Below, piece after piece: positions 9,959-57,775 of a DNA stretch of 58,443 nucleotides. The stretch covers positions 1 to 58,443 of the forward strand of contig JASHNV010000150.1 in the NCBI GenBank assembly GCA_030041455.1, written 5' to 3'. The notes under the pieces were generated by a model. That model made no database searches, was not told where the DNA came from, and saw only the letters and a program-made list of their open reading frames with translations. How positions within the stretch are numbered: position 1 is the stretch's first letter; the number at the start of each line of letters is the position of its first letter. The stretch comes from Spirochaetia bacterium (lineage in GTDB: Bacteria; Spirochaetota; Spirochaetia; DAHUYW01). Position numbers and translations under genes: made by a program.

Positions 9959-12037
9959 ATGAACGAAATCGAGCAATGGAAGAAAATAGTCCTGACGCTT
10001 CCTCAGGCGTCCTTCTTCGAGATTACGCGAAACTACCTCGGCGAGCTTCGCACGCCGTTCAACAAGCACAGCCTCATCAACGAGCTCGTCGCCTTCCTCA
10101 GGCGCCCTGAAACCCAGGAGCGCATCGTGCTCCAGATCGACGAGGACGACGCGAAGCTCCTCACCGCGCTCTTTCTCCTCGACGAGCCCGGAGGAGAGCG
10201 CCTTTTTTCCCTCTTCGCGGGAGAGCGGAGCTACCTCGAGTTCCACAACCATCTGCTCAACCTCGAGGACCGACTCCTCGTCTACCGCGAAGCGGACCCG
10301 GCCGGCTTTCGGGTCCGCGTGAACCCGATCCTCCGGAGCCGTCTCGCCGAGTCCGCGGTGCGCCCGGAGCTCCTCTTCCCGTCGAGTCCGGCGAAGGGGC
10401 CGGAGCCGCAGGCTCCCTGGCTGAGCGAGGCGCTCGTCCTCGGCTTCGTTTCCTACCTGTTCGAGCGGCCGGGCATGCTCAAGTCGGACGGACGGCCCAA
10501 GAAAAAGATCGAAGACGAGATGAAGGCGATCTTCCCGGGGCTGCTCGGCGCGACCGGTCACGGAAGCCGCCTCGAGCTGCTCGTGCGCTCCCTCGCGAAC
10601 CTCGGGTTCGCTCGCCTCTCGGGAGGCGAGCTCTTCGTCGAGCTCGAGCGGCTGAGGGGCGCGGGACGACTGGACCCGTCGAGCCTCGCGCTCCTTGTCT
10701 GGTCGGCCGCGATCGACGACGGCGAGGTCGCGGGGGATCCCGAGGCGTTCGAGGAGAGGCTCGCCGGCTTCGAGCGCCAGGCGCAGCTGATCGGCGACCT
10801 CCTCGCAAGCCTCGACCCCGGCCGCCTCTACCCGCTCGCGACCCTGAGGCGCGTCGCGCTCGCGCTCGCGCCCGAGCGGCGCGGGGCCGAAGGCGACGGC
10901 CCCGCGCTTCCGGTCGGCTTCGACCGCCTCGTTGGCGGGCTCGCCGACCTCTCCGTGATCGTCCCTTCGGGCAAGGCCGGCTTCCGCCGGACTCCGTCCT
11001 GGCCGCTCGAGGCCCCTGCGGCGGAGCCGGGCGGGCTCGTCGTCCAGCCGAGCTTCTCCCTCGCGTGCAGGCCGTCCCTTCCCTTCGAGGCGGGGCTTCT
11101 CGTCGCGTCCATCGCCGAGGTACGCCGCCTCGACGTCTATCCCCTCTACGAGATTACGAAACGCTCCTTTGCCCGAGCGCTGAGCCGCGGCCTCGAGTCG
11201 GGCGCGATCTGCGAGGCGCTCGAGCGCTCAAGCGGCTCCCCCCTCCCGCAGAACGTCCGCTTCTCGCTCGAGAGCTGGCAGAAGGAGCAGTCGGGGATCG
11301 GTCTCTACGCGGGCGTCGTGCTCGCCGCCGACGAGGAGCGGCGCATTCTCGTGGAGCATTCCAAGGCGATGAAGCCGTGGATCCGCCGCGTGCTCGCTCC
11401 GGGGGTGTTCCTGCTCGATCCCCGCGAGCGGCCGGAGTGGGAAAAGGCGCTCGCGCGGTCCGGCCTCGGCCCGATGCCGGAGGTCAAGCAGGCCGGAAGG
11501 CCCGAGATCATGCGCGGAACCGGAAGGGGCCTCAAGACGGTCGCAAAGGGGAAGCGAATCTCCCTCGCCCCCGGCGGAGAAGCGGCGCCGAGGGCTCCGG
11601 GCAGCCCCGCGCAGGTCGGTCGCCGGCGCGACGCGCTGCTCCGCGAGCTCTCCTCGACGCTCGAAAGCCTGAAGCTTCCGCGCGAGCTCACCGGAGAGCT
11701 CGCCGCGCGCATCCGGAAGAAGCTCATCCTCTTTCCCGATCAGATCCGCAACGCCACCGCGCGGCAGGACCGCGTGGAGGCGAAGGGGCTCGATTACGTG
11801 GGCAAGGTGCGCCTCATCGAGCAGGCGCTCGCCTCGGGAACCGACCTTCTCGAGATCCTCGAGCGCTCCGAGCGCGGGACGACCCGCAAGCTCCTCGTGA
11901 GGCCGGAGAAGGTCGCCAAGGCCGGAAGCGACCTCCTCCTCCACGGCCGCTCGCTCCCCGAGGAGACGGCCGTGCAGATCAAGGTGCGGAAGATCGTGCT
12001 CCTGCGAAAGCTGAGAAGCTCGCTCTTCGCGCCCTGA
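9959..12037 (+). CDS. Helicase-associated protein (XPB partner, Helicase_C_3-like)
   Basis: The 692-residue product begins at ATG 9959 (MNEIEQWKKIVLTL); the longer open frame upstream runs through the helicase gene in another frame and is a shadow. The middle, around 370-520, has the Helicase_C_3-type layout: LVVQPSFSLACRPSLPFEAG, then SLESWQKEQSGIGLYAGVVL and a conserved ILVEHSKAMKPWIRRVLAPG. The C-terminal 140 residues hold KGLDYVGKVRLIEQAL and a basic tail, possibly nucleic-acid binding. Such proteins are usually encoded next to bacterial XPB and probably act with it on damaged DNA. The mechanism is not established from sequence. Confidence 0.75.
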   Translation: MNEIEQWKKIVLTLPQASFFEITRNYLGELRTPFNKHSLINELVAFLRRPETQERIVLQIDEDDAKLLTALFLLDEPGGERLFSLFAGERSYLEFHNHLLNLEDRLLVYREADPAGFRVRVNPILRSRLAESAVRPELLFPSSPAKGPEPQAPWLSEALVLGFVSYLFERPGMLKSDGRPKKKIEDEMKAIFPGLLGATGHGSRLELLVRSLANLGFARLSGGELFVELERLRGAGRLDPSSLALLVWSAAIDDGEVAGDPEAFEERLAGFERQAQLIGDLLASLDPGRLYPLATLRRVALALAPERRGAEGDGPALPVGFDRLVGGLADLSVIVPSGKAGFRRTPSWPLEAPAAEPGGLVVQPSFSLACRPSLPFEAGLLVASIAEVRRLDVYPLYEITKRSFARALSRGLESGAICEALERSSGSPLPQNVRFSLESWQKEQSGIGLYAGVVLAADEERRILVEHSKAMKPWIRRVLAPGVFLLDPRERPEWEKALARSGLGPMPEVKQAGRPEIMRGTGRGLKTVAKGKRISLAPGGEAAPRAPGSPAQVGRRRDALLRELSSTLESLKLPRELTGELAARIRKKLILFPDQIRNATARQDRVEAKGLDYVGKVRLIEQALASGTDLLEILERSERGTTRKLLVRPEKVAKAGSDLLLHGRSLPEETAVQIKVRKIVLLRKLRSSLFAP

Positions 12038-12061
12038 CTCACTCGGGCGGCTCGCGCCTGC

Positions 12062-13555
12062 CTACGTCTCCGCCGCGCCCCGCGGGTAATCGCGGCCGGT
12101 GAACAGCGCGAACTGGGCGTAGGCCTGCTCGAGCAGCATCTCCATGCCGGGGACGACCCGGCACCCGGCGGCTTGCGCGCGGCGGAGGAGCTTGGTCTCC
12201 CTCGGCGAGTAGACGAGATCGTAGACGATCTCGCGGCCCGACAGATCGTAGAAAGCGAGGGGGTCGTTCCCCGCGCCGCCGGCATCGACGCCGCCGCCTT
12301 CCATTCCGACGCTCGTCGTCTGGACGATGAGGTCGAAGCCGCGCCCGACGAGCCCGGAGGAGAGCTCCGCCCAATCGCAGCCGAACTCCTCCGCGAGCGA
12401 TCGGGCGCGCTCGACGGTGCGGTTCGCGACCGTGACCCTCGCGCCCTCGTCGGTGAGCGCGAAGACCACGGCCCTCGCCGAGCCTCCGGCGCCCGCGACG
12501 AGCGCCGTCATGGCCGGAAGCCGGCGGGGCGGCCGAGTCCCCTCGACGGCGCGTCTCAAGGGCGCGAGGAAGCCCGACGCGTCGGTGTTGGCGCCGCGCC
12601 ACCCGCTCGGGGTCCGCACGAGGGTGTTGCACGAGCCGATGCGCGCGACCTCAGGCGAGCGCTCGGCGAGGTAGGGCAGCACCGCCCGCTTATGGGGAAT
12701 GGTCACCGAGCTCCCGCGGATCCGCAGGCGCTCGGCGATGGCGAAGAAGAGCGCGATGTCGTCGATCGGAAGGGGCAGGTAGACCGCGTCGATACCGAGC
12801 GCGCGAAAGCCGGGATTGTGAATCCACGGCGAGCGGCTGTGCATGACGGGGTTCCCGATGACCGCGTAGAGCTCCGTGCGCTCTCCGATCGATCGCGCCC
12901 GGTAGATCGCGCTCAGGGTCACCGGGTCGACGTGGCCGGGCGCGGCGCTTCGCTCGCCCGCCGTGCAGTAGCTGAGCGCGGAGCCGAGCCGGGATGCGAG
13001 CACGCGGGTCGGAAATCCGTAGGGGCCCATCCCGAGGAGCACCTTCTCGACGCCGGAAAGCTCGTCGTAGGCGTCGAGGAGCGACAGGAGGTCGCGCGAA
13101 GAGCCGAGGAGGACCGCGGCCTTCGGGAGCTCGTCCGCCGACCGCGCAAGGCGGCGCAGCCTGCCCGCGAGGTCGGGGGGTAGGCCGGCGGTGAGGTGGA
13201 GCGATCGGATGATCCGGACGGAGCGCGCTCGCGCGCGGGCTTCGACCTCCGAAGCGGCGAGATCCTCCTCAAGATCGACGAAGGCCCACGGCGCCTCGAT
13301 CGCGGAGCGAAGGAGCGACACCCGCTCCTCCTCGCTTCCGCGGAAGCGGCCTCCGTCGCTCTCGCGGCGAACCGTGAGGATCGCGGGCAGCCGAGCGCGC
13401 TCGGGGAACGAGCGGAGCGCCGAGCGCTCGCCCGAGTCGAGAAAGTCGGCCCTGAGCTCCACCGCGTCGATCGAGTCCCGGTTCCGCTCGACGAGCGCGA
13501 GATCGGCCGCCAGGGTCGGCTCCGTGAGCGAGAGGCAGATCTTCGTGGGCGTCAT
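12062..13555 (-). CDS. aroDE: Bifunctional 3-dehydroquinate dehydratase (type I) / shikimate dehydrogenase
   Basis: The 497-residue protein fuses two consecutive shikimate-pathway steps. Residues 1-225 are a type I dehydroquinase: ELRADFLD near residue 30, FVDLEEDL, and a C-terminal barrel strand ending LGMGPYGFPTRVLA; the Schiff-base Lys is expected in the EKVLLGMG region. Residues 240-497 are AroE-like: YAVIGNPVMHSRSPWIHN binds shikimate, SVTIPHK carries the catalytic Lys, GSCNTLVR and NTDASGF follow, and GAGGSARAVVFAL binds NADP. The ATG at 13555 overlaps the nagA-like stop by 4 nt. AroDE fusions are known in some bacteria. The window also holds two type II enzymes (28-29 kb), which look catabolic rather than biosynthetic. 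Confidence 0.9.
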   Translation of the reverse strand: MTPTKICLSLTEPTLAADLALVERNRDSIDAVELRADFLDSGERSALRSFPERARLPAILTVRRESDGGRFRGSEEERVSLLRSAIEAPWAFVDLEEDLAASEVEARARARSVRIIRSLHLTAGLPPDLAGRLRRLARSADELPKAAVLLGSSRDLLSLLDAYDELSGVEKVLLGMGPYGFPTRVLASRLGSALSYCTAGERSAAPGHVDPVTLSAIYRARSIGERTELYAVIGNPVMHSRSPWIHNPGFRALGIDAVYLPLPIDDIALFFAIAERLRIRGSSVTIPHKRAVLPYLAERSPEVARIGSCNTLVRTPSGWRGANTDASGFLAPLRRAVEGTRPPRRLPAMTALVAGAGGSARAVVFALTDEGARVTVANRTVERARSLAEEFGCDWAELSSGLVGRGFDLIVQTTSVGMEGGGVDAGGAGNDPLAFYDLSGREIVYDLVYSPRETKLLRRAQAAGCRVVPGMEMLLEQAYAQFALFTGRDYPRGAAET

Positions 13556-14703
13556 GCGGCGTAGACCTCCTCCCCCGCGATGATACACGCTTTGACCGTA
13601 AGCTTCGATTCCCCCGGACGCCAGGCGAACAGGACCAGGTTGGCCTCGGCGCCCGCTTCGATCCGCGCTCGCCGCCCGAGGAGGCCCGCGGGCACCTCCG
13701 TCGCGAGGAGAACGCCTTCGCGGAGGCCGAGGCCGCTCATGGCGACGAACTGCGCGACGCCGCGGTCGAGGAGGTGGCCCGCCCCGGCGAGGGAGGCGCC
13801 GCTCTCGGCGGGCGCGCCGATGTGGCCGTCGGAGTAGACCTCCACCTCGCTATCGAGCCACGCGTAGCGGCCCGGCGGTCGGCCGGCATGGACGGCGACG
13901 TCGCTCACGAGAAAGAGCTTCCCGGCGGGTTTCACCCGGCTCATCGCCTTGACGACGGATCCGGGAAGATGGAAGCCGTCGCAGATGATGCCCGCGGCGA
14001 GCTCGTCGGCGGCGAGCTGCTCCCAGAGGTAGTTCGGGTGGCGGGGCAGGAGGCGGTGGCTTCCGTTTCCGAGATGGGTCGAGAGGGTCGCGCCGGCGGA
14101 TATCGCCTCGCGGATCTCCTCGGGACGAGCCGCGGTGTGACCGATCGCCACGCGAACGCCCGTCGCGACGACCCTCTCGATGAAGGGGAGCGCGCCTGGG
14201 CGCTCGGGGGCGAGCGTGACGTACCGAATGGCGCCCTCGGCCGCCTCCTGCCACTCCGCGAACTCCTCGAAGTCCGGATCCCGCACGAAGGAGCGCGGAT
14301 GCACGCCCCTCGGCCCGTCCTCGGCGGAGATGAAGGGCCCCTCGACGTGCATGCCCGCCACCGCCCTTCCGACGAGCGGAATCCCGGCGCAGGCGCGCGC
14401 GATGACCTTCAGATTGCGCGAGATTCGTTCCCTCGGTCCGGTGACGATCGTCGGCACGTGCTGGGTGGTCCCCGACGCGGCGAGAGCGCGCACCACGGAG
14501 AGGACATCCTCGGCCTCGAGGCGCTCCGAGCTGTAGTCGACGCCCCGAAGCCCGTTTACCTGGAGATCGGTGAAGCCGGAGGCGATCCAGGGAAGGTCGT
14601 CCGACGCGCCGCTCCCTCGAGCCGAGACGCTCCGGATCGTCTCGCCTGAGATCTCGACGTCGAGGATCTCGCCGCCGAGCGCGGACCTTCCCCTCACGAT
14701 CAT
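13552..14703 (-). CDS. nagA: N-acetylglucosamine-6-phosphate deacetylase-like amidohydrolase
   Basis: The 383-residue product from ATG 14703 has the NagA architecture. SGFTDLQVNG (42-51) replaces the usual amidohydrolase HxH strand, as in NagA. MHVEGPF (Glu121) is the metal-binding segment, AIGHT supplies a His, THLGNGSH corresponds to HLFNAM, IICDGFHL follows, and LVSDV carries the catalytic Asp. It would deacetylate GlcNAc-6-phosphate in amino-sugar use or cell-wall recycling. HLGNGSH is unusual for NagA, so a related N-acyl sugar is possible. A longer frame to 14844 lacks family similarity. The stop overlaps the aroDE start, so the two are translationally coupled. Confidence 0.83.
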   Translation of the reverse strand: MIVRGRSALGGEILDVEISGETIRSVSARGSGASDDLPWIASGFTDLQVNGLRGVDYSSERLEAEDVLSVVRALAASGTTQHVPTIVTGPRERISRNLKVIARACAGIPLVGRAVAGMHVEGPFISAEDGPRGVHPRSFVRDPDFEEFAEWQEAAEGAIRYVTLAPERPGALPFIERVVATGVRVAIGHTAARPEEIREAISAGATLSTHLGNGSHRLLPRHPNYLWEQLAADELAAGIICDGFHLPGSVVKAMSRVKPAGKLFLVSDVAVHAGRPPGRYAWLDSEVEVYSDGHIGAPAESGASLAGAGHLLDRGVAQFVAMSGLGLREGVLLATEVPAGLLGRRARIEAGAEANLVLFAWRPGESKLTVKACIIAGEEVYAA

Positions 14704-51131: not shown

Positions 51132-51160
51132 TGTACAGTCCCCGCGTTTGCGGATACCCT
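51132..51160 (+). promoter_or_regulatory. Promoter of the SDR gene
   Basis: TGTACA (51132-51137), 17-nt spacer, TACCCT (51155-51160), 11 nt before ATG 51172. Confidence 0.4.
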
Positions 51161-51171
51161 GGGGCGCTACC

Positions 51172-52011
51172 ATGAAAAGCAACGCGATTCTCGTCACCGG
51201 CGCCTCATCGGGGATCGGGAGGGCGTGCGCCGAGCGGCTTGCCGCGCGCGGCTTCGCCGTCTTCGCCGGCGTGAGGAGCGAGAGCGACGCCCGCGCGCTT
51301 TCCGCGACCAAGGGGATCGTTCCCCTCAGCCTCGACGTTACCTCGGCGGACTCGGTCAGGGAGGCCGCCGACAGGGTATCCCGCGCAGGAGGCGGGCTCT
51401 TCGGCCTCGTCAACAACGCCGGCATAACGGTGGCCGGGCCCCTCGAGGCGCTTCCCATCTCCTCCCTCAGGCTTCAGTTCGAGGTGAACGTCATCGGACA
51501 GATCCTCGTCGCCCAGGCCTTCATTCCGCTCCTGCGGGAGTCCGGCGGCCGGATCGTCCTCATGAGCTCGATCCTCGGCCGCCTCGCCCTGCCCTTCCTC
51601 GGCGCCTACGCGGGGAGCAAGTTCGCCCTCGGCGCGCTCGCCGACTCCTTGAGCATGGAGCTCGCGCCGTGGGGCGTCGCCGTCTCGCTCGTCGAGCCGG
51701 GAAACATCGCGACGAAGATCTGGGAAAAAACGAGGGAGCGCGGCTTGAAGGAGGCCGCGGAGGACCCCAAACGGTACCGAGAGCTCTACGGCGAGGAGCT
51801 TGCCCGCTTCGAGCGGTACACCGCGCACGCCGAGTCGAGCGGCATCCAGGCCGAGCGGGTGGCGCGCGCCTGCGAGCGCGCGCTGTGCGCCCGCAGGCCG
51901 CGCTCGCGCTACACCGTCGGCTGGGATTCCCGGCTTCTCGGACGCCTCGCGCCCGCGCTCGCGGGCAGAGTCCGTCAGCGGATCGTCCGCCGCGTCGTGC
52001 TTCGCAGGTAG
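51172..52011 (+). CDS. Short-chain dehydrogenase/reductase (retinol-dehydrogenase-like)
   Basis: The 279-residue protein is a classical SDR: TGASSGIGRACAERL (9-23) with the basic VRS following, pointing to NADP(H); NNAG; Ser in LMSSILGRLALP; catalytic Tyr and Lys in AYAGSKFAL; and VEPGNIATKIW. The C-terminal 70 residues form a helical, basic cap as in 17-beta-HSD/retinol-type enzymes that act on lipids. The start is ATG 51172 (a longer frame begins 24 nt earlier, upstream of the -10). It converges with the GT1 gene and overlaps it by 37 nt. Confidence 0.9.
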   Translation: MKSNAILVTGASSGIGRACAERLAARGFAVFAGVRSESDARALSATKGIVPLSLDVTSADSVREAADRVSRAGGGLFGLVNNAGITVAGPLEALPISSLRLQFEVNVIGQILVAQAFIPLLRESGGRIVLMSSILGRLALPFLGAYAGSKFALGALADSLSMELAPWGVAVSLVEPGNIATKIWEKTRERGLKEAAEDPKRYRELYGEELARFERYTAHAESSGIQAERVARACERALCARRPRSRYTVGWDSRLLGRLAPALAGRVRQRIVRRVVLRR

Positions 52012-53249
52012 CCGTCGAGAACGCGCACGGTCTCCGCGACGCCGTCCTCGGTCCTGATCCGGCTTCCGATCTCCGCGGCGGCCGCGCGCATCCGTTCGCT
52101 TCCGAGGACCTCGTCGATCGCGCGGGTCAAGGACTCGGCGGTGAGCTTCGCGACCGGAATCGGCTCCGCGCCGGCCCCGAGCGTTCGGACGCGGCGGCCC
52201 CAGAAGAACTGGTCGCCGAAGAACGGAACGACGATCGACGGAACGCCTGAGCGGAGCGCCATCGCGGTCGTGCCCGCTCCGCCGTGGTGGATCGCCGCGG
52301 CGACTCGCGGAAAGAGCCAATCGTGGGGCACGAAGTCGACGGCCAGGAGCCCCGCGGGGAGGGCCTCGGTCCGAAGCCCCCCCCACCCCGAGGCGACGAT
52401 CGCGCGCCTGCCGCTTTGACGCACCGCGTCGATGACCGCCGCGGTGAGCGGCGACGCCTCGCCGCGCGCCATGCTCCCGAACCCGACGTAGAGAGGCGCG
52501 CTTCCCCCCTCGAGGAACTCCGTGAGCGCTCGGGGGGGAGTCCATCCGGCGTCGCGGGCGAGGAACCAGTAGCCGCGGACCGACAATCGCGCTCGCCAGT
52601 CCGCGGGGATCGGGATGACCGACGGGCTGTACGCGTAGAGATAGGGAACGCCCGCGCGCGCGAACTCCGCGAAAAAATAGGGAAGCGGGCCGAGCCCGAG
52701 CTCGCGCTTTCGCCACCGGTCGTGGAGCCGGCGAATGAGGAGCCAGTAGGACCGCGCGATGAACGAGGCGCTCGGCCGATTCGCTCCCGGCAGTCGAAGG
52801 TCGGGCGTCATGATCGAAGGGAAGGCTCGAGTGGGATGGAGGGGATAGAGCGACGCGGGGATGCCGGGAATGCCGAGCGCCTCGGCGGCGGAGAGGGCGA
52901 CGACGGAAAGCGGGAGGCTGTACACGACCGCGTCGCACCCCCGGCAGACGCGCAGAACGTCGCGGGAAAGCTCCTCGATCAGGCCGCGCGCAAGCGAGGC
53001 GAGGCGAAGGAAAAACCTCGCCGGACTGCTCGACGAATCGAGCCACGCCTGACCTTCCGCGCCCCGGACGATGTCGACCGGGTTCCCGGCGAGCGGGGAG
53101 AACTCGATCCGGCAGCGGGCTGCGAGCTCTCGGAAGCCCTCGTGGCTGCCGAAGACCACCTCGTGTCCCGCCTGGAGCAGGCCGGCGCCGAGCGCCGCGA
53201 AGGGTTGAACGTCGCCCTGCGAGCCTGCGGCGATAATCGCGATTCGCAA
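51975..53249 (-). CDS. GT1-family glycosyltransferase (UGT / sterol-glucosyltransferase type)
   Basis: The 424-residue GT-B enzyme starts MRIAIIAAGSQGDVQPFAALG, typical of MGT/UGT enzymes, and has the donor-binding signature FVPHDWLFPRVAAAIHHGGAGTTAMALRSGVPSIVVPFFGDQFFWG near residues 315-360. Members glycosylate lipids, sterols or natural products. The start is TTG 53249 with GGAGAAAATAG upstream. It is divergent from the KAS III-like gene and shares a promoter region with it; the convergent SDR at its 3' end also looks lipid-active. Together these hint at a small glycolipid set, unproven. Confidence 0.9.
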   Translation of the reverse strand: MRIAIIAAGSQGDVQPFAALGAGLLQAGHEVVFGSHEGFRELAARCRIEFSPLAGNPVDIVRGAEGQAWLDSSSSPARFFLRLASLARGLIEELSRDVLRVCRGCDAVVYSLPLSVVALSAAEALGIPGIPASLYPLHPTRAFPSIMTPDLRLPGANRPSASFIARSYWLLIRRLHDRWRKRELGLGPLPYFFAEFARAGVPYLYAYSPSVIPIPADWRARLSVRGYWFLARDAGWTPPRALTEFLEGGSAPLYVGFGSMARGEASPLTAAVIDAVRQSGRRAIVASGWGGLRTEALPAGLLAVDFVPHDWLFPRVAAAIHHGGAGTTAMALRSGVPSIVVPFFGDQFFWGRRVRTLGAGAEPIPVAKLTAESLTRAIDEVLGSERMRAAAAEIGSRIRTEDGVAETVRVLDGYLRSTTRRTIR

Positions 53250-53289
53250 CTATTTTCTCCTCGGACTGTCCAATATGGGCCGAACGCGA

Positions 53290-53318
53290 TATAATAACGA
53301 ATTAGCGGCGGGTTGCAA
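53290..53318. promoter_or_regulatory. Overlapping divergent promoters for GT1 and the KAS III-like gene
   Basis: The plus-strand -10 TATAAT (53290-53295; -35 weak at about 53267) overlaps the minus-strand -10 TATTAT (53296-53291; -35 TTGCAA at 53318-53313, 16-nt spacer). One polymerase would exclude the other. Confidence 0.5.
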
Positions 53319-53398
53319 AGAAACTCCGGGGAAGACTCCGTCCCGCCGGGATCACAACAACTCAAGGAAGGTCACGGAGTGATGGCCTTTTTTGCAAC
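53312..53398 (+). promoter_or_regulatory. Structured leader candidate upstream of the KAS III-like gene
   Basis: GTTGCAAA (53312-53319) can pair perfectly with TTTGCAAC (53391-53398), enclosing about 70 nt. Inside are two ACTCCG copies (near 53323 and 53335), either of which can pair with one CGGAGT (near 53375). A U-rich run (53388-53393) sits in the closing stem, just before the weak GAGGC ribosome site and ATG 53408. It looks like a switchable RNA, or alternatively two operator half-sites. Confidence 0.35.
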
Positions 53399-53407
53399 GA
53401 GGCGTTC

Positions 53408-54451
53408 ATGAGGATTGAATCGATCGGCATACGAACTCCGTCGCGAAGGGTGACCAACGACGACATCCTGCAGATCCTTGAAGAGAACAGCGGCGGCGTT
53501 CCGAAAATCCTGTTGAAAACGTACATGCGGATGGTTTCCGGTCTCTTCAAGGTGGCGGGATCCGAGGTACGCTACATCCGGGATTTCGCGCGCAACGAGA
53601 AAGCCGTCGACTTCATCAAGGGGGCGATCGCCGACTCGCTCGATCAATGGGGACAATCGAAGAGCGACATCGACCTGATGATTTACTGCGGGGTCGGCAA
53701 GGGGTTTCTCGAGCCCGCGAGCGCCTATTTCTACGCAAACGCCATGGGGATGAGCTGCGCCTGTTTCGACATCTGCGACGCCTGCATGAGCTGGATTCGG
53801 GCGCTTGAGATCTCCTACGAGTTCTTCAAGAGCGGGCGCTACCGCAACATCATGATCGTCAACGGAGAGTTCAACGTTCACCACGGCCTGCCGGACAATT
53901 TCAAGGTCAAGGATCTCAAGCAGATCGAGTACACCTTCCCCACCTACACGATCGGGGAGAGCGCGACGGCGACGATCGTCGCCGCCTCGGACAAGGAGTG
54001 GAAGTTCACGTTCAAGACGCTCCCCGAGCTGAGCGATCTGTGCACCATTCCGCTCGACGGCTACGAGAGCTTCGTCGACAATCCGAATCATCGCCTCAAC
54101 AAGAACGGACTCTCCAATTTCGTCTCGTACGGCGGGAAAATGTTCGACAGCGCGCGCGAGCACCTCGCCCCGCTCGTCCGAGATACCGTCGGGGACATGA
54201 ACGGACCGGATATCTACTTCCCCCACGCGGCCTCCGACACCGCGTACCTCTCGGCCGGAAAGGACATCGGCATTCCCTCCGAGAAGATGTACGCGAAGGT
54301 GTTTCCCGCGTTCGGAAACGTCGTGTCGGCGAGCATCCCCATGGGCATGGACATGGCGATCAAGGAAGGACGCCTGCGGCGCGGCGACAAGGTCGTGTTC
54401 TGCCCCGCGAGCGCGGGCATGGTCTACAGCGTCGTCCAGTTCGAATACTGA
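53408..54451 (+). CDS. KAS III / HMG-CoA-synthase-like thiolase-fold enzyme, orphan
   Basis: The 347-residue protein has a FabH-type catalytic triad: nucleophile Cys126 in DICDACMSW, His273 in FPHAAS (HQAN position) and Asn304 in FGNVVSASIP (GNTSAASIP position). It ends CPASAGMVYSVVQFEY. The Cys loop departs from the usual AACSG of FabH, and no fatty-acid gene is near, so it probably is not housekeeping FabH. Such enzymes condense acyl-CoA or acyl-ACP units (OleA, HMG-CoA synthase, signalling-lipid synthases). Base composition seems less GC-extreme than its neighbours. ATG 53408 is well conserved in context. Confidence 0.85.
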   Translation: MRIESIGIRTPSRRVTNDDILQILEENSGGVPKILLKTYMRMVSGLFKVAGSEVRYIRDFARNEKAVDFIKGAIADSLDQWGQSKSDIDLMIYCGVGKGFLEPASAYFYANAMGMSCACFDICDACMSWIRALEISYEFFKSGRYRNIMIVNGEFNVHHGLPDNFKVKDLKQIEYTFPTYTIGESATATIVAASDKEWKFTFKTLPELSDLCTIPLDGYESFVDNPNHRLNKNGLSNFVSYGGKMFDSAREHLAPLVRDTVGDMNGPDIYFPHAASDTAYLSAGKDIGIPSEKMYAKVFPAFGNVVSASIPMGMDMAIKEGRLRRGDKVVFCPASAGMVYSVVQFEY

Positions 54452-54750
54452 GTGCATCCCCGTGCGCCGGAGTCGGAGCTCGCGGCTTCGCTGGCGGTTG
54501 GCGCCTGCCGTCCGTCGCCGCGACGCCGGCAGCGCGCCTTCGCTCCCGTCCGGGACGGTAGACCGCGCGCCGATTCGCGCGAGGCTCGCGTCCGCGGCGG
54601 GATACCGCGGTTTTCTCCGCGCCGGATGGCCGGTCGCGCTCCGCGGGTAGGCTCCCGCCTGCGTCAGGTCGCGCGGGGCGCCTCGCCGTATTCCATGATC
54701 CATCCGTCGCGCGCGTTCGCGCTCCGGCCGGAAAGGCTTTGGGAGAAGAC
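54452..54750. other. 299-nt gap, nothing recognised
   Basis: The gap between the KAS III-like gene and the outer-membrane protein gene shows no clear promoter with good spacing, no terminator with a U-tract and no coding frame. A GGGAGAAGAC ribosome site ends it. Confidence 0.4.
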
Positions 54751-56379
54751 ATGAGGAAGTTCGCCGCGGCCGCGCTCGTAGCGGCGCTTGCCGGCCTCGC
54801 TCCGGCGCTTTTCGGCCAGGAAGTGGCACAGGTCAACGACCGGCTCTACACGGACCTCGAGCTCTGGCAGGACAGGGGTCTCATCGGGGACCTTCCGCCG
54901 CTTCGCCCCTTTCCGATTCAGCTCGTCGTCAAGCTCCTGAACGAGGTCAGCGCGCGCGGCACTCGGGCGGACCGCACGCTCGCGGGCGAATACCTTCGAG
55001 CGATCGAGGGGAGCGCCAACGCCCACCTCGAGGTCGGCGCGCTCGTCCGGTCGAGCCCCGGGGAGACCTATGAACAGGCGGGCGTGAGCGTGGTCGCCCA
55101 GGGCGCCGTCACCCCGATCCTGACCTACTCCGGCGACCTCGGCGTCTTCGGAGTGAGCGGTCCGTCGAGCACCGCGCTTCCTACCTATGTTCGGCCGACG
55201 CAGGACTTCCTGAACGACTCGTCGGTCCAGCCGCTCGGATCAAGCGGCTTGACTCCTCGGCTCTCCATGACGTCGCAGCTCGCCCTCGGAAGCGATTCGC
55301 TCTATTTCCAGACGGGAGTCCTGCAGGATTCCTTCGGCCCGTTCTGGGGCGACAACGCGGTCCTGAGCCCCGATGCGCCCCAATCGGTGGACTTTTCGCT
55401 GACCTGGCGGCAGGGATTCTTCACCTACACGCAGCTCCTGAAGGACATCTCCGCGACGCAAAACGACGGCGGAGGAGGCCCGAGCCCGGGGAAGTTCCTG
55501 TCGCTCAATTCGCTCGATTTCTATCCGGCTTCGTGGCTCACCCTCGGGATTTTCGAGTCGGTGGTCTGGGGCGACGGCTTCGATCCCCGCTACCTTCTTC
55601 CGGCTCCGAGCGTGCTCTACTACGCGCAGGGTCTCGTGGGCTGGCCGGGGGCCGAGCATTTCGGGCTGTCCGCCGAGGCGAGGCTTCCGCACGCGATCAA
55701 GGTGGATGCGCTGCTCTACCAGGGGGACGCGAGCTTCAACGATCTCGTGAAGCTCGATTTCAACACGATGGATCTTTTCTCGGCGCAGGGCGGGCTCTCG
55801 TGGACTCCGAATCTGCCCTTCTTGACCCGGCTGAGCCTGAACTATCTCCTCGTCAGCCCCTACGCCTACACCCATGTCTACGGCGGCGGCACGCAGGCCG
55901 ATCCCACGGAGATCAACTACGAGAACTATACCAACGACGGCGAAAACATGGGACCGTCGATCGATCCGAACTCCGACCGCCTCGAGATCGAAGCTCTCGT
56001 GCGCCCGGCTCCGTTCGCCGACGTGACGCTGTTCGGTCGCATCGTGCGCCACGGAAACGCCTCCTCCTACGGCGGCACGACCTACGGTAACGGCACCGTC
56101 TTCGACGACGGCTACGTCGACGGCAGCCCGAGCTTCGCCCCCGGCTACACGGGGACGAGCGAGCTCTTTCGCTTTCTCAGCCAGCCGGTACTCGAGCAGA
56201 TTTTCCAGATCGGCGCCGCCACCTCCCTGCGCTTCGAGACGACCTTCGGAGAGATTCTCGGAACCGTTTCCTACACGTTCGAGTTCATCGCGAACCCGGT
56301 CGATGCGAGCGGCAATCCCCAGGCCGGCGTGAGCGAAGCGAACAACTACATCGAGGCGGGCCTGACCTATCGATTCTGA
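54751..56379 (+). CDS. Outer-membrane beta-barrel protein, Wzi-like
   Basis: The 542-residue product has a signal peptide (MRKFAAAALVAALAGLAPALFG) and ends GLTYRF, a C-terminal Phe typical of barrel proteins recognised by the BAM machinery. Alternating polar/apolar strands with aromatic girdles fill the protein. The N-terminal region YTDLELWQDRGLIGDLPPLRPFP resembles the start of Wzi-type capsule-assembly proteins, so it may hold surface polysaccharide; that match is by eye. ATG 54751 follows GGGAGAAG; the in-frame TTG at 54739 does not. It converges with the GT28 gene, 21 nt away, consistent with a shared envelope theme. Confidence 0.65.
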   Translation: MRKFAAAALVAALAGLAPALFGQEVAQVNDRLYTDLELWQDRGLIGDLPPLRPFPIQLVVKLLNEVSARGTRADRTLAGEYLRAIEGSANAHLEVGALVRSSPGETYEQAGVSVVAQGAVTPILTYSGDLGVFGVSGPSSTALPTYVRPTQDFLNDSSVQPLGSSGLTPRLSMTSQLALGSDSLYFQTGVLQDSFGPFWGDNAVLSPDAPQSVDFSLTWRQGFFTYTQLLKDISATQNDGGGGPSPGKFLSLNSLDFYPASWLTLGIFESVVWGDGFDPRYLLPAPSVLYYAQGLVGWPGAEHFGLSAEARLPHAIKVDALLYQGDASFNDLVKLDFNTMDLFSAQGGLSWTPNLPFLTRLSLNYLLVSPYAYTHVYGGGTQADPTEINYENYTNDGENMGPSIDPNSDRLEIEALVRPAPFADVTLFGRIVRHGNASSYGGTTYGNGTVFDDGYVDGSPSFAPGYTGTSELFRFLSQPVLEQIFQIGAATSLRFETTFGEILGTVSYTFEFIANPVDASGNPQAGVSEANNYIEAGLTYRF

Positions 56380-56400: not shown

Positions 56401-57684
56401 TTAAGCCTTGCGGCGCTTGAGAACCGCGTTCGAGCCGCGGTAGGCAACCATGTAGCCGAACGCCTGCTTGAGAGGATAGGGACGCCCGTCGGGGGAGAAG
56501 AGCATCTCGCGCAGCCGCGGGCGGTACGCGGCCGACGGACGCGCCTTGAGGGCGAGGATAAAGTCGACGATCTCGTCGGTGCCGTTTCGAAGCGTGAGCC
56601 GCTCGATCCGCGCGCGAAACACGTCGTAGGCCGCCGGATCCTGGACGAGCTGCCTGATGCGGCTCACGATCTCGGCGGGCTCCTCGATGTAGAAGCCGAT
56701 TTTGTTCGTGAGGACGAAATCCACGTTGCCGCGCTCCTGGCCGTAGAGGTACTGCGAGACGATGAGCGGCTTCTTCAGCATCAGCGACTCCATCACGGTC
56801 GCCGGCCCCCCCTTCGACACGATGATGTCGGCGACGTTCATGAGCTCGAACATGAAGTCCACGAAGCCGTAGACATGAACGGCCTTCCCCGGATTGCGCT
56901 CCCGAATCCGCTCGACGCGCGAGCGCGTGAGCGCGTCTTTGCCGCAGACGACCGCGATCTCCACGTCGAGGTCGGACTCGACGAGCGACTGGGCATAGCG
57001 CTCTCCGTTCGGCAGTCCCTCCCCACCGCCTGCAAGGAGCACCACGCGCTTGTCGGCGGAGAAGCCGAGCTCCCGCCTGAGGGCGAGAACGCGCTCCTCG
57101 GACAACGGACGGCCGAACTGGCTGCGAAGGATCACGGGAAAGTGATGGACGTTCCAGGCCGGGTGATCGAAACGCTCGATCGCCTGCCGCCTCGCCCGCT
57201 CGGAGAAGACCACGATCGGGCCGCCGGTCCGCTGGAACCAGAACTCCGGCGCGGTGAACGGATCGAGAACGACGGTCATGACCGCCGGATGGCGCCGAAC
57301 GCGCTTCACGGCGTAGAGCGCCGGCGCTATGAGCAGGCAATGGAGAAGCACGATCTTGGTGATCTCGTGTTTCTCGATCGTCCGCGCGATGCGCCGCCAG
57401 AACAGCCGGATCATCACGGCGTTCCACAGGCGGCGGACCGCCTTGCTCTTCGTCACGAGGATCGCAGCGACCCACAGCTGCCGCATATAGTTGGAGGAGA
57501 ACCGGTATCCCCGATCGAAGAACCTGCGCCAGAAGATGCTCTCCGGCGGCATGGCGTCGAGCGTGACGACCTCCACTTCGTCGGGCGTATGAAGCTCGCG
57601 GATCCGCCGCTCGATCGCCAGAGCGGCCGCGATGTGCCCGCCGCCGGTCCTGAGATACGGAAGCAGAATGCGTTCACGGACCAT
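56401..57684 (-). CDS. MurG/MGDG-synthase-like glycosyltransferase (GT28), probably glycolipid
   Basis: The 427-residue GT-B protein has an N-terminal LLPYLRTGGGHIAAALAI, like MGDG synthases (GGGHxxAA), a middle VVLLAGGGEGLPNG loop and a C-terminal donor site with DIIVSKGGPATVMESLMLKKPLIVSQY and EERGNVDF-like acceptor Glu/Gln. MGDG synthases and YpfP-type enzymes glycosylate diacylglycerol in the membrane. The N-terminal basic/hydrophobic patch fits membrane association. ATG 57684 follows AAGG; the frame to 57747 crosses the promoter. It is probably responsible for a membrane glycolipid, common in spirochaetes. Confidence 0.83.
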   Translation of the reverse strand: MVRERILLPYLRTGGGHIAAALAIERRIRELHTPDEVEVVTLDAMPPESIFWRRFFDRGYRFSSNYMRQLWVAAILVTKSKAVRRLWNAVMIRLFWRRIARTIEKHEITKIVLLHCLLIAPALYAVKRVRRHPAVMTVVLDPFTAPEFWFQRTGGPIVVFSERARRQAIERFDHPAWNVHHFPVILRSQFGRPLSEERVLALRRELGFSADKRVVLLAGGGEGLPNGERYAQSLVESDLDVEIAVVCGKDALTRSRVERIRERNPGKAVHVYGFVDFMFELMNVADIIVSKGGPATVMESLMLKKPLIVSQYLYGQERGNVDFVLTNKIGFYIEEPAEIVSRIRQLVQDPAAYDVFRARIERLTLRNGTDEIVDFILALKARPSAAYRPRLREMLFSPDGRPYPLKQAFGYMVAYRGSNAVLKRRKA

Positions 57685-57745
57685 ACGACCTTGTCCTCTT
57701 ACGTAATGATAAATTCGCTGTTCTTCGGGGCGGACGGGACATTTC

Positions 57746-57775
57746 ACTATACGTTACCTTCTTTCGATCCGTCAA
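57746..57775 (-). promoter_or_regulatory. Promoter of the GT28 gene
   Basis: On the minus strand TTGACG (57775-57770), 18-nt spacer, TATAGT (57751-57746). The leader is about 55 nt. It is back to back with the rightward promoter at 57782. Confidence 0.6.

Follow-up and report, generated by a model that had tools for sequence, protein, structure and literature searches.

A KAS III-like enzyme family with an OleA-type glutamate, found beside a reductase and a glycosyltransferase in Spirochaetales and beside sensor kinases in other lineages

A contig of 58,443 nucleotides from a Spirochaetia bacterium (JASHNV010000150.1; its whole length is called the window here) carries a KAS III-family gene at 53408-54451, close to genes for a glycosyltransferase and a short-chain dehydrogenase/reductase (SDR). 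The question is what this enzyme joins together, and what then becomes of its product. An initial annotation had taken the gene for an orphan distinct from ordinary FabH and had proposed that the three neighbors make a glycosylated ketone or alkyl lipid. Genomes and loci are identified below by G and L numbers, the window's own genome being G000.

The gene is real, intact and not a housekeeping KAS III. The open frame at 53408..54451 (+) encodes 347 amino acids followed by a stop codon, and its product matches the Pfam families PF08541 (54.8 bits, cut-off 26.6) and PF08545 (26.3 bits, cut-off 24). An AlphaFold2 model (mean pLDDT 93.1, pTM 0.92) has the standard KAS III fold, and in fold comparison the OleA and FabH chains tied, with Z scores of 35-38 for both, so that the comparison did not separate OleA from FabH. 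Against the FabH model TIGR00747 the protein scored 61.7-69.3 bits, short of the cut-off of 292.1, and nothing in NCBIfam exceeded its cut-off, the best matches being PRK09258 and PRK07204 (90.3 bits against 285 and 402). A genome search found two other proteins above the TIGR00747 cut-off in the window's genome, indicating that housekeeping fatty-acid initiation is covered elsewhere. The nucleophile Cys126 (codon 53783-53785, +) lies in the loop FDICDACMSW, and the triad is completed by His273 (54224-54226, +) and Asn304 (54317-54319, +); each of the three residues is kept in all 38 family rows of our alignment. Two early observations, a complete triad and an unusual cysteine loop (DICDACMSW), were therefore accurate.

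The suggestion that the gene is an orphan was not borne out, because relatives exist. A single-sequence search of 60 genomes, including the window's own, found one close relative at 76% identity, in a genome carrying the same genus label (G001, locus L051). Across 394 genomes of the class, such a search recovered the window, G001 (76%), G082 (66%) and G147 (58%), with everything else at or below 28%; a Paraburkholderia plasmid carries a relative at 39% (L043). A first single-sequence scan of the genome contig collection returned zero relatives, a scan of viral contigs returned none, and phage records gave just weak matches of 20-25%. With an alignment of five sequences as the query (the window, G001, G082, G147 and the Paraburkholderia plasmid copy), one scan of the GTDB contig collection recovered 44 family loci. 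Their hosts are Spirochaetota, Saganbacteria/WOR-1, Pseudomonadota (mostly Paraburkholderia), Amycolatopsis, Chlorogloeopsis, Acidobacteria, one myxococcal MAG and one Bacteroidales MAG. The family is compact, patchily distributed across eight phyla and marked by the signature GF-x-EP ... CFD-x-x-DACMSW; the window's closest non-spirochaete relatives are in WOR-1/Saganbacteria, at 50-52% identity.

We placed the family in a tree of 66 rows, 38 of them family rows (the window and 37 of the 44 loci). Near copies or partial sequences were dropped (L062, L073, L076, L078, L081, L082 and L092, plus the plasmid copy L043), and the aligned L085 sequence is missing its N-terminal part. All 38 family rows form one clade (support 100/99), with the FabH rows as a separate group outside it. 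OleA also falls outside, on a long branch joined with L135 and L136 (95/87), a join that may be a long-branch artefact. The window's KAS III clusters with neither FabH nor OleA, and this placement, together with the low TIGR00747 score, agrees with the early view that it is not an ordinary FabH. The family splits into two branches. Spirochaetia, WOR-1/Saganbacteria and a gammaproteobacterium make up the first (98/98). The second (96/97) comprises a sensor-linked group from Paraburkholderia, Ramlibacter and a gammaproteobacterium (100/98) and another group (91/80) of mixed, mainly biosynthetic members. The nearest outgroup KAS III proteins (L049:8219-9289, -, and L050:8867-9928) read FREP...FDINDTC and also have a glutamate; they belong to a conserved set in two Spirochaetia genomes that by eye includes AMP-ligase and acyl-CoA dehydrogenase genes.

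The likely chemistry is suggested by a single residue, Glu102 (codon 53711..53713, +), the equivalent of OleA Glu117 and the proposed condensation base. Glutamate occupies this position in 38 of 38 family rows, compared with five of the 28 other KAS III rows (OleA, L005, L035, L135 and L136); the four FabH rows have F, F, L and C. When solved structures were searched with a profile built from the window and 30 of the 44 loci (A2), the top match was OleA (E 1e-32), and the profile alignment pairs Glu102 with the glutamate of the OleA motif DYLEP. PDB titles name OleA E117A/D/Q mutants, and the title of a paper cited in PMC7064751 describes Glu117 as key to condensing two acyl-CoAs. According to an excerpt of Kresovic et al., 2015 (PMC4578411), the pyrone synthase PpyS uses E105 and C129, 24 residues apart, and the E105A replacement abolished product. 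Glu102 and Cys126 of the window's protein are likewise separated by 24 residues; since some other family members have 25, this spacing is supportive rather than diagnostic. From the invariant glutamate, the OleA match and the PpyS spacing and E105A result, we infer head-to-head, non-decarboxylative joining, and the window's enzyme probably joins two acyl chains in this way.

We propose a reaction, with its substrates and order of steps, on the basis of these similarities. Cys126 would be acylated by a fatty acyl thioester, and Glu102, probably contributed by the partner monomer as in OleA, would deprotonate the alpha carbon. The carbanion would then attack a second acyl (or 3-oxoacyl) thioester, which could yield an alpha-pyrone or an alpha-alkyl beta-keto acid, the latter becoming a ketone if CO2 is lost. 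We read the family as head-to-head ketone or pyrone synthases, some of which are probably signal makers.

In the window, two genes lie close to KAS III. A GT1/GT28-like glycosyltransferase of 424 amino acids (51975..53249, -; PF06722, PF03033, PF00201) is transcribed divergently from it, as first described. The SDR (51172..52011, +; 279 amino acids, or 287 from a TTG at 51148; PF00106, 147 bits) converges on the glycosyltransferase, the two genes overlapping tail to tail by 37 bp. With one divergent and one convergent pair, the block is not one operon. The 158-bp intergenic region between the glycosyltransferase and KAS III (53250..53407) averages 67% column identity across three genomes, in scattered positions, and a search there for a regulatory element shared by the three found only one weak promoter-like match, on the glycosyltransferase side. 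The lipid-type C-terminal cap once ascribed to the SDR does not correspond to any defined feature; among the NCBIfam matches listed for this protein, PRK06182, 3-ketodihydrosphingosine reductase and the others were all below cut-off.

The order SDR, glycosyltransferase, KAS III is kept in the window, G001 and G082, with an identical 37-bp SDR/glycosyltransferase overlap in all three. The SDR is preceded by relA/spoT in the window and, in G001, by a gene that by eye is cation/H+ antiporter-like; the G082 contig ends at that point, so the flank comparison covers the other two genomes. A block and an overlap conserved despite differing flanks make a three-gene lipid pathway plausible. Among the 394 class genomes, an SDR above 46% or a glycosyltransferase above 44% identity to the window's occurs only in these three. 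KAS III lacks an adjacent SDR and glycosyltransferase in G147, where a glycosyltransferase at 42% lies on another contig, and it also occurs without them alongside in the other lineages examined, which makes the SDR and glycosyltransferase optional partners.

A second arrangement bears on the glycosyltransferase. In G010 and G069, a 43% member of the window's glycosyltransferase family adjoins an epimerase-type SDR and a different glutamate-bearing KAS III (L135 and L136), and two separate pairings of this glycosyltransferase type with a glutamate-type KAS III favor glycosylation of the KAS III product. In the three Spirochaetales genomes, the SDR would reduce the keto group and the glycosyltransferase would glycosylate the resulting hydroxyl, giving a glycosylated dialkyl lipid; reduction before glycosylation would be the simplest order. 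Of the original three-gene proposal for a glycosylated ketone or alkyl lipid, what stands is a block conserved in three Spirochaetales genomes, consistent with one pathway leading to a glycosylated lipid of ketone or alcohol type, but the SDR and glycosyltransferase are optional in the family, where a link to signaling is commoner.

Several other features of these regions were recorded. The L136 KAS III is a 623-amino-acid frame whose C-terminal half matches no assigned domain, and L136 also contains a LuxE-like acyl-protein synthetase. Other members of the glycosyltransferase family have nearby large membrane proteins that by eye resemble RND/MMPL transporters (L138:6891-9446, -; L140:935-3313, -); near KAS III itself, Pfam confirmed MMPL only in L091. 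Downstream of KAS III in the window are a 546-amino-acid protein that looks exported and matches nothing in Pfam or NCBIfam (54739-56376, +) and a glycosyltransferase resembling diglucosyl-diacylglycerol/MGDG synthases (56404-57747, -).

Relatives of the window's enzyme are most often found beside a membrane sensor of a type that reads signals between cells. Counting the 44 loci together with the plasmid copy, 29 of 45 have a membrane histidine kinase as the next gene on the same strand, at apparent gaps of -41 to 42 bp. The neighborhoods examined total 848 kb and contain just 19 other histidine kinase-like frames, a count that includes the second half of a broken L064 copy. Because neighbors were listed by choosing frames mechanically (by greatest length or by codon-GC weighting), some may be false frames; the main neighbors were checked with Pfam. 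Twenty-seven of the 29 kinases belong to one family, referred to here as CqsS-type. The P. caribensis member has about six membrane helices by eye and HATPase, two receiver and Hpt domains by Pfam, and its residues 1-212 match two kinases that each have a CqsA-like neighbor (both neighbors identified by eye): one from V. campbellii, adjoining that gene, and one from Cupriavidus, directly following it. In local comparison with V. campbellii CqsS, all eight sensor domains tested of the 27 are homologous (E <1e-4), that of Ramlibacter being the weakest. An excerpt of PMC3376566 gives W104 and S107 of V. cholerae CqsS as setting head-group specificity. At these sites, which we located through the V. 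campbellii W-x-x-S motif and assigned by our own alignment, the tryptophan is kept in seven of the eight kinases, and the S107 site is Ala in six, Cys in one and Leu in one.

The remaining two kinases, from WOR-1 and Saganbacteria, have a different sensor and match HisKA_7TM (L054 over the cut-off, L055 just under it). The pairing of KAS III with a kinase thus arose at least twice, and because the pairings are confined to two clades, the 29 loci represent about two independent events rather than 29. Among 17 tested genomes with a CqsS-type pair, CqsA is encoded elsewhere in eight (E <1e-100), Ramlibacter has a 28% match of uncertain kind, and eight have no CqsA match at 1e-30. According to the same review, genes for a synthase and its sensor usually lie side by side. 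Among the matches listed in a search of titles and abstract openings of open-licence PMC papers, none connected a CqsS-type kinase with a KAS III or PpyS-like enzyme. In L064 the CqsS-like kinase is broken across a pair of overlapping frames (11067-13638), perhaps by a frameshift or sequencing error, and in L058, L065, L071, L073, L077, L081 and L082 (Paraburkholderia group) a second histidine kinase-like frame, near 13.6-15.0 kb (-), is convergent to the CqsS-like kinase.

We infer from these pairings that the family product in other lineages is a possible ligand of the adjacent membrane histidine kinase, likely as a diffusible or membrane-borne signal. A broader reading, which we put forward tentatively, is that the family is an autoinducer synthase class that took over the position of CqsA next to CqsS-type receptors and, in a separate event, became associated with 7TM kinases in WOR-1/Saganbacteria. 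It would make head-to-head ketone or pyrone signals, and in Spirochaetales the core product would be reduced and glycosylated to a new glycolipid or a masked signal.

Family members also have other neighbors. AMP-ligases are found beside or near KAS III in L059, L069, L075, L086 and L090, and P450s in L057 (by eye), L086 and L088. Three scattered loci have nearby a fusion of an ABC1-type atypical kinase with a class-III aminotransferase, identified by Pfam (L057:10843-13683; L075:13432-16116, -; L093:10921-13668), for which we know of no function. The family enzyme looks like a reusable core step.

A sensor of the kinds seen in relatives was looked for twice in the window's organism, and its presence there was unsupported. 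Neither a CqsS-like nor a WOR-1-type sensor domain was found in G000, where matches cover only the kinase core or receiver, and no orthologous sensor domain was found in G000, G001, G082 or G147. The sole kinase/regulator pair seen in the window, at 42.1-44.2 kb, appears by eye to be of ordinary OmpR type. Since the window's genome shows no such sensor, we prefer a glycosylated lipid there and assign the signal reading to the relatives; for the window's product, a glycosylated lipid is likelier than a signal. These results weigh against the spirochaete KAS III being a signal synthase too, producing a diffusible alkyl ketone or pyrone that is sensed by an unlinked kinase and modified or inactivated by the SDR and glycosyltransferase. 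Because most loci of relatives are kinase-paired, the closest non-spirochaete relatives in WOR-1/Saganbacteria among them, and because the similar enzyme PpyS makes a known signal (PMC4578411, excerpt), we keep this as the leading rival, though an improbable one.

A decarboxylative, FabH-like enzyme using malonyl-ACP to start the chain of a special fatty acid or polyketide would also have a KAS III fold and triad, and the structural tie between FabH and OleA fits it as well. We consider this quite unlikely given the score far under the TIGR00747 cut-off, the position outside FabH on the tree, the two other FabH proteins in the genome, and an invariant glutamate where the FabH rows have F, F, L and C. 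The three genes may instead be neighbors by chance, or through shared inheritance of an unselected segment: only three genomes have the block, it cannot be co-transcribed as a whole, and SDRs and glycosyltransferases are common enzyme types. That gene order and the 37-bp overlap persist at 66-76% KAS III identity in genomes labeled as two families (f1, f35), while the flanks of the window and G001 differ, leaves this explanation slightly less credible still. CerJ is a KAS III-like acyltransferase. The adjacent glycosyltransferase could supply a sugar to an enzyme of this sort, which would esterify a hydroxyl or the sugar, and excerpts of the literature describe ChlB3 as another KAS III-like acyltransferase. 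However, the full Cys-His-Asn triad and the condensing-enzyme glutamate are invariant, and relatives exist without any similar glycosyltransferase alongside, making this the least probable of the alternatives.

On balance, we lean modestly toward a PpyS/OleA-like condensing enzyme whose product is reduced and glycosylated in spirochaetes and is a possible kinase ligand elsewhere. If true, an uncharacterised family of head-to-head condensing enzymes spanning eight phyla becomes recognizable by sequence, Paraburkholderia becomes a tractable setting in which to find a new quorum-sensing molecule together with its receptor, and a glycosylated lipid derived from an alkyl ketone is predicted in spirochaetes.

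Among known systems, OleA of Xanthomonas campestris (PDB 3row and mutants) is the best solved relative by profile. The window's KAS III combines the Cys-His-Asn triad with a glutamate at the OleA E117 position, as expected of an OleA/PpyS-like enzyme, whereas OleA lies outside the family on the tree and is about 20% identical in the model alignment. The window's SDR neighbor is of the classical short-chain type (PF00106), a further difference from the OleA system. With CqsA/CqsS and LqsA/LqsS (PMC3376566, PMC3285556; excerpts), the likeness lies in the homologous sensor domain of the KAS III-linked kinases (Paraburkholderia, Ramlibacter and a gammaproteobacterium; eight tested) and in the adjacent synthase candidate. 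That candidate is a KAS III, whereas CqsA is a PLP enzyme, and the S107 site differs in all eight kinases; pairing of the CqsA/CqsS type is absent from the window. The photopyrone and pseudopyronine synthases PpyS/PyrS share with the window's enzyme the KAS III triad, a glutamate 24 residues before the cysteine (E105/C129 and E102/C126) and the predicted head-to-head chemistry; the comparison uses published residue numbering, the tree's reference rows being FabH, OleA and other KAS III proteins. PpyS signals through the LuxR-type receptor PluR, whereas the family's enzymes are paired with histidine kinases in relatives and with an SDR and a glycosyltransferase in the window. The same excerpt of Kresovic et al., 2015 (PMC4578411) describes a second group of PpyS-like enzymes, with members in Burkholderia and Microcystis, whose role it leaves open; the window's family may overlap this group, and the pairing of synthase and sensor makes the group's role directly testable.
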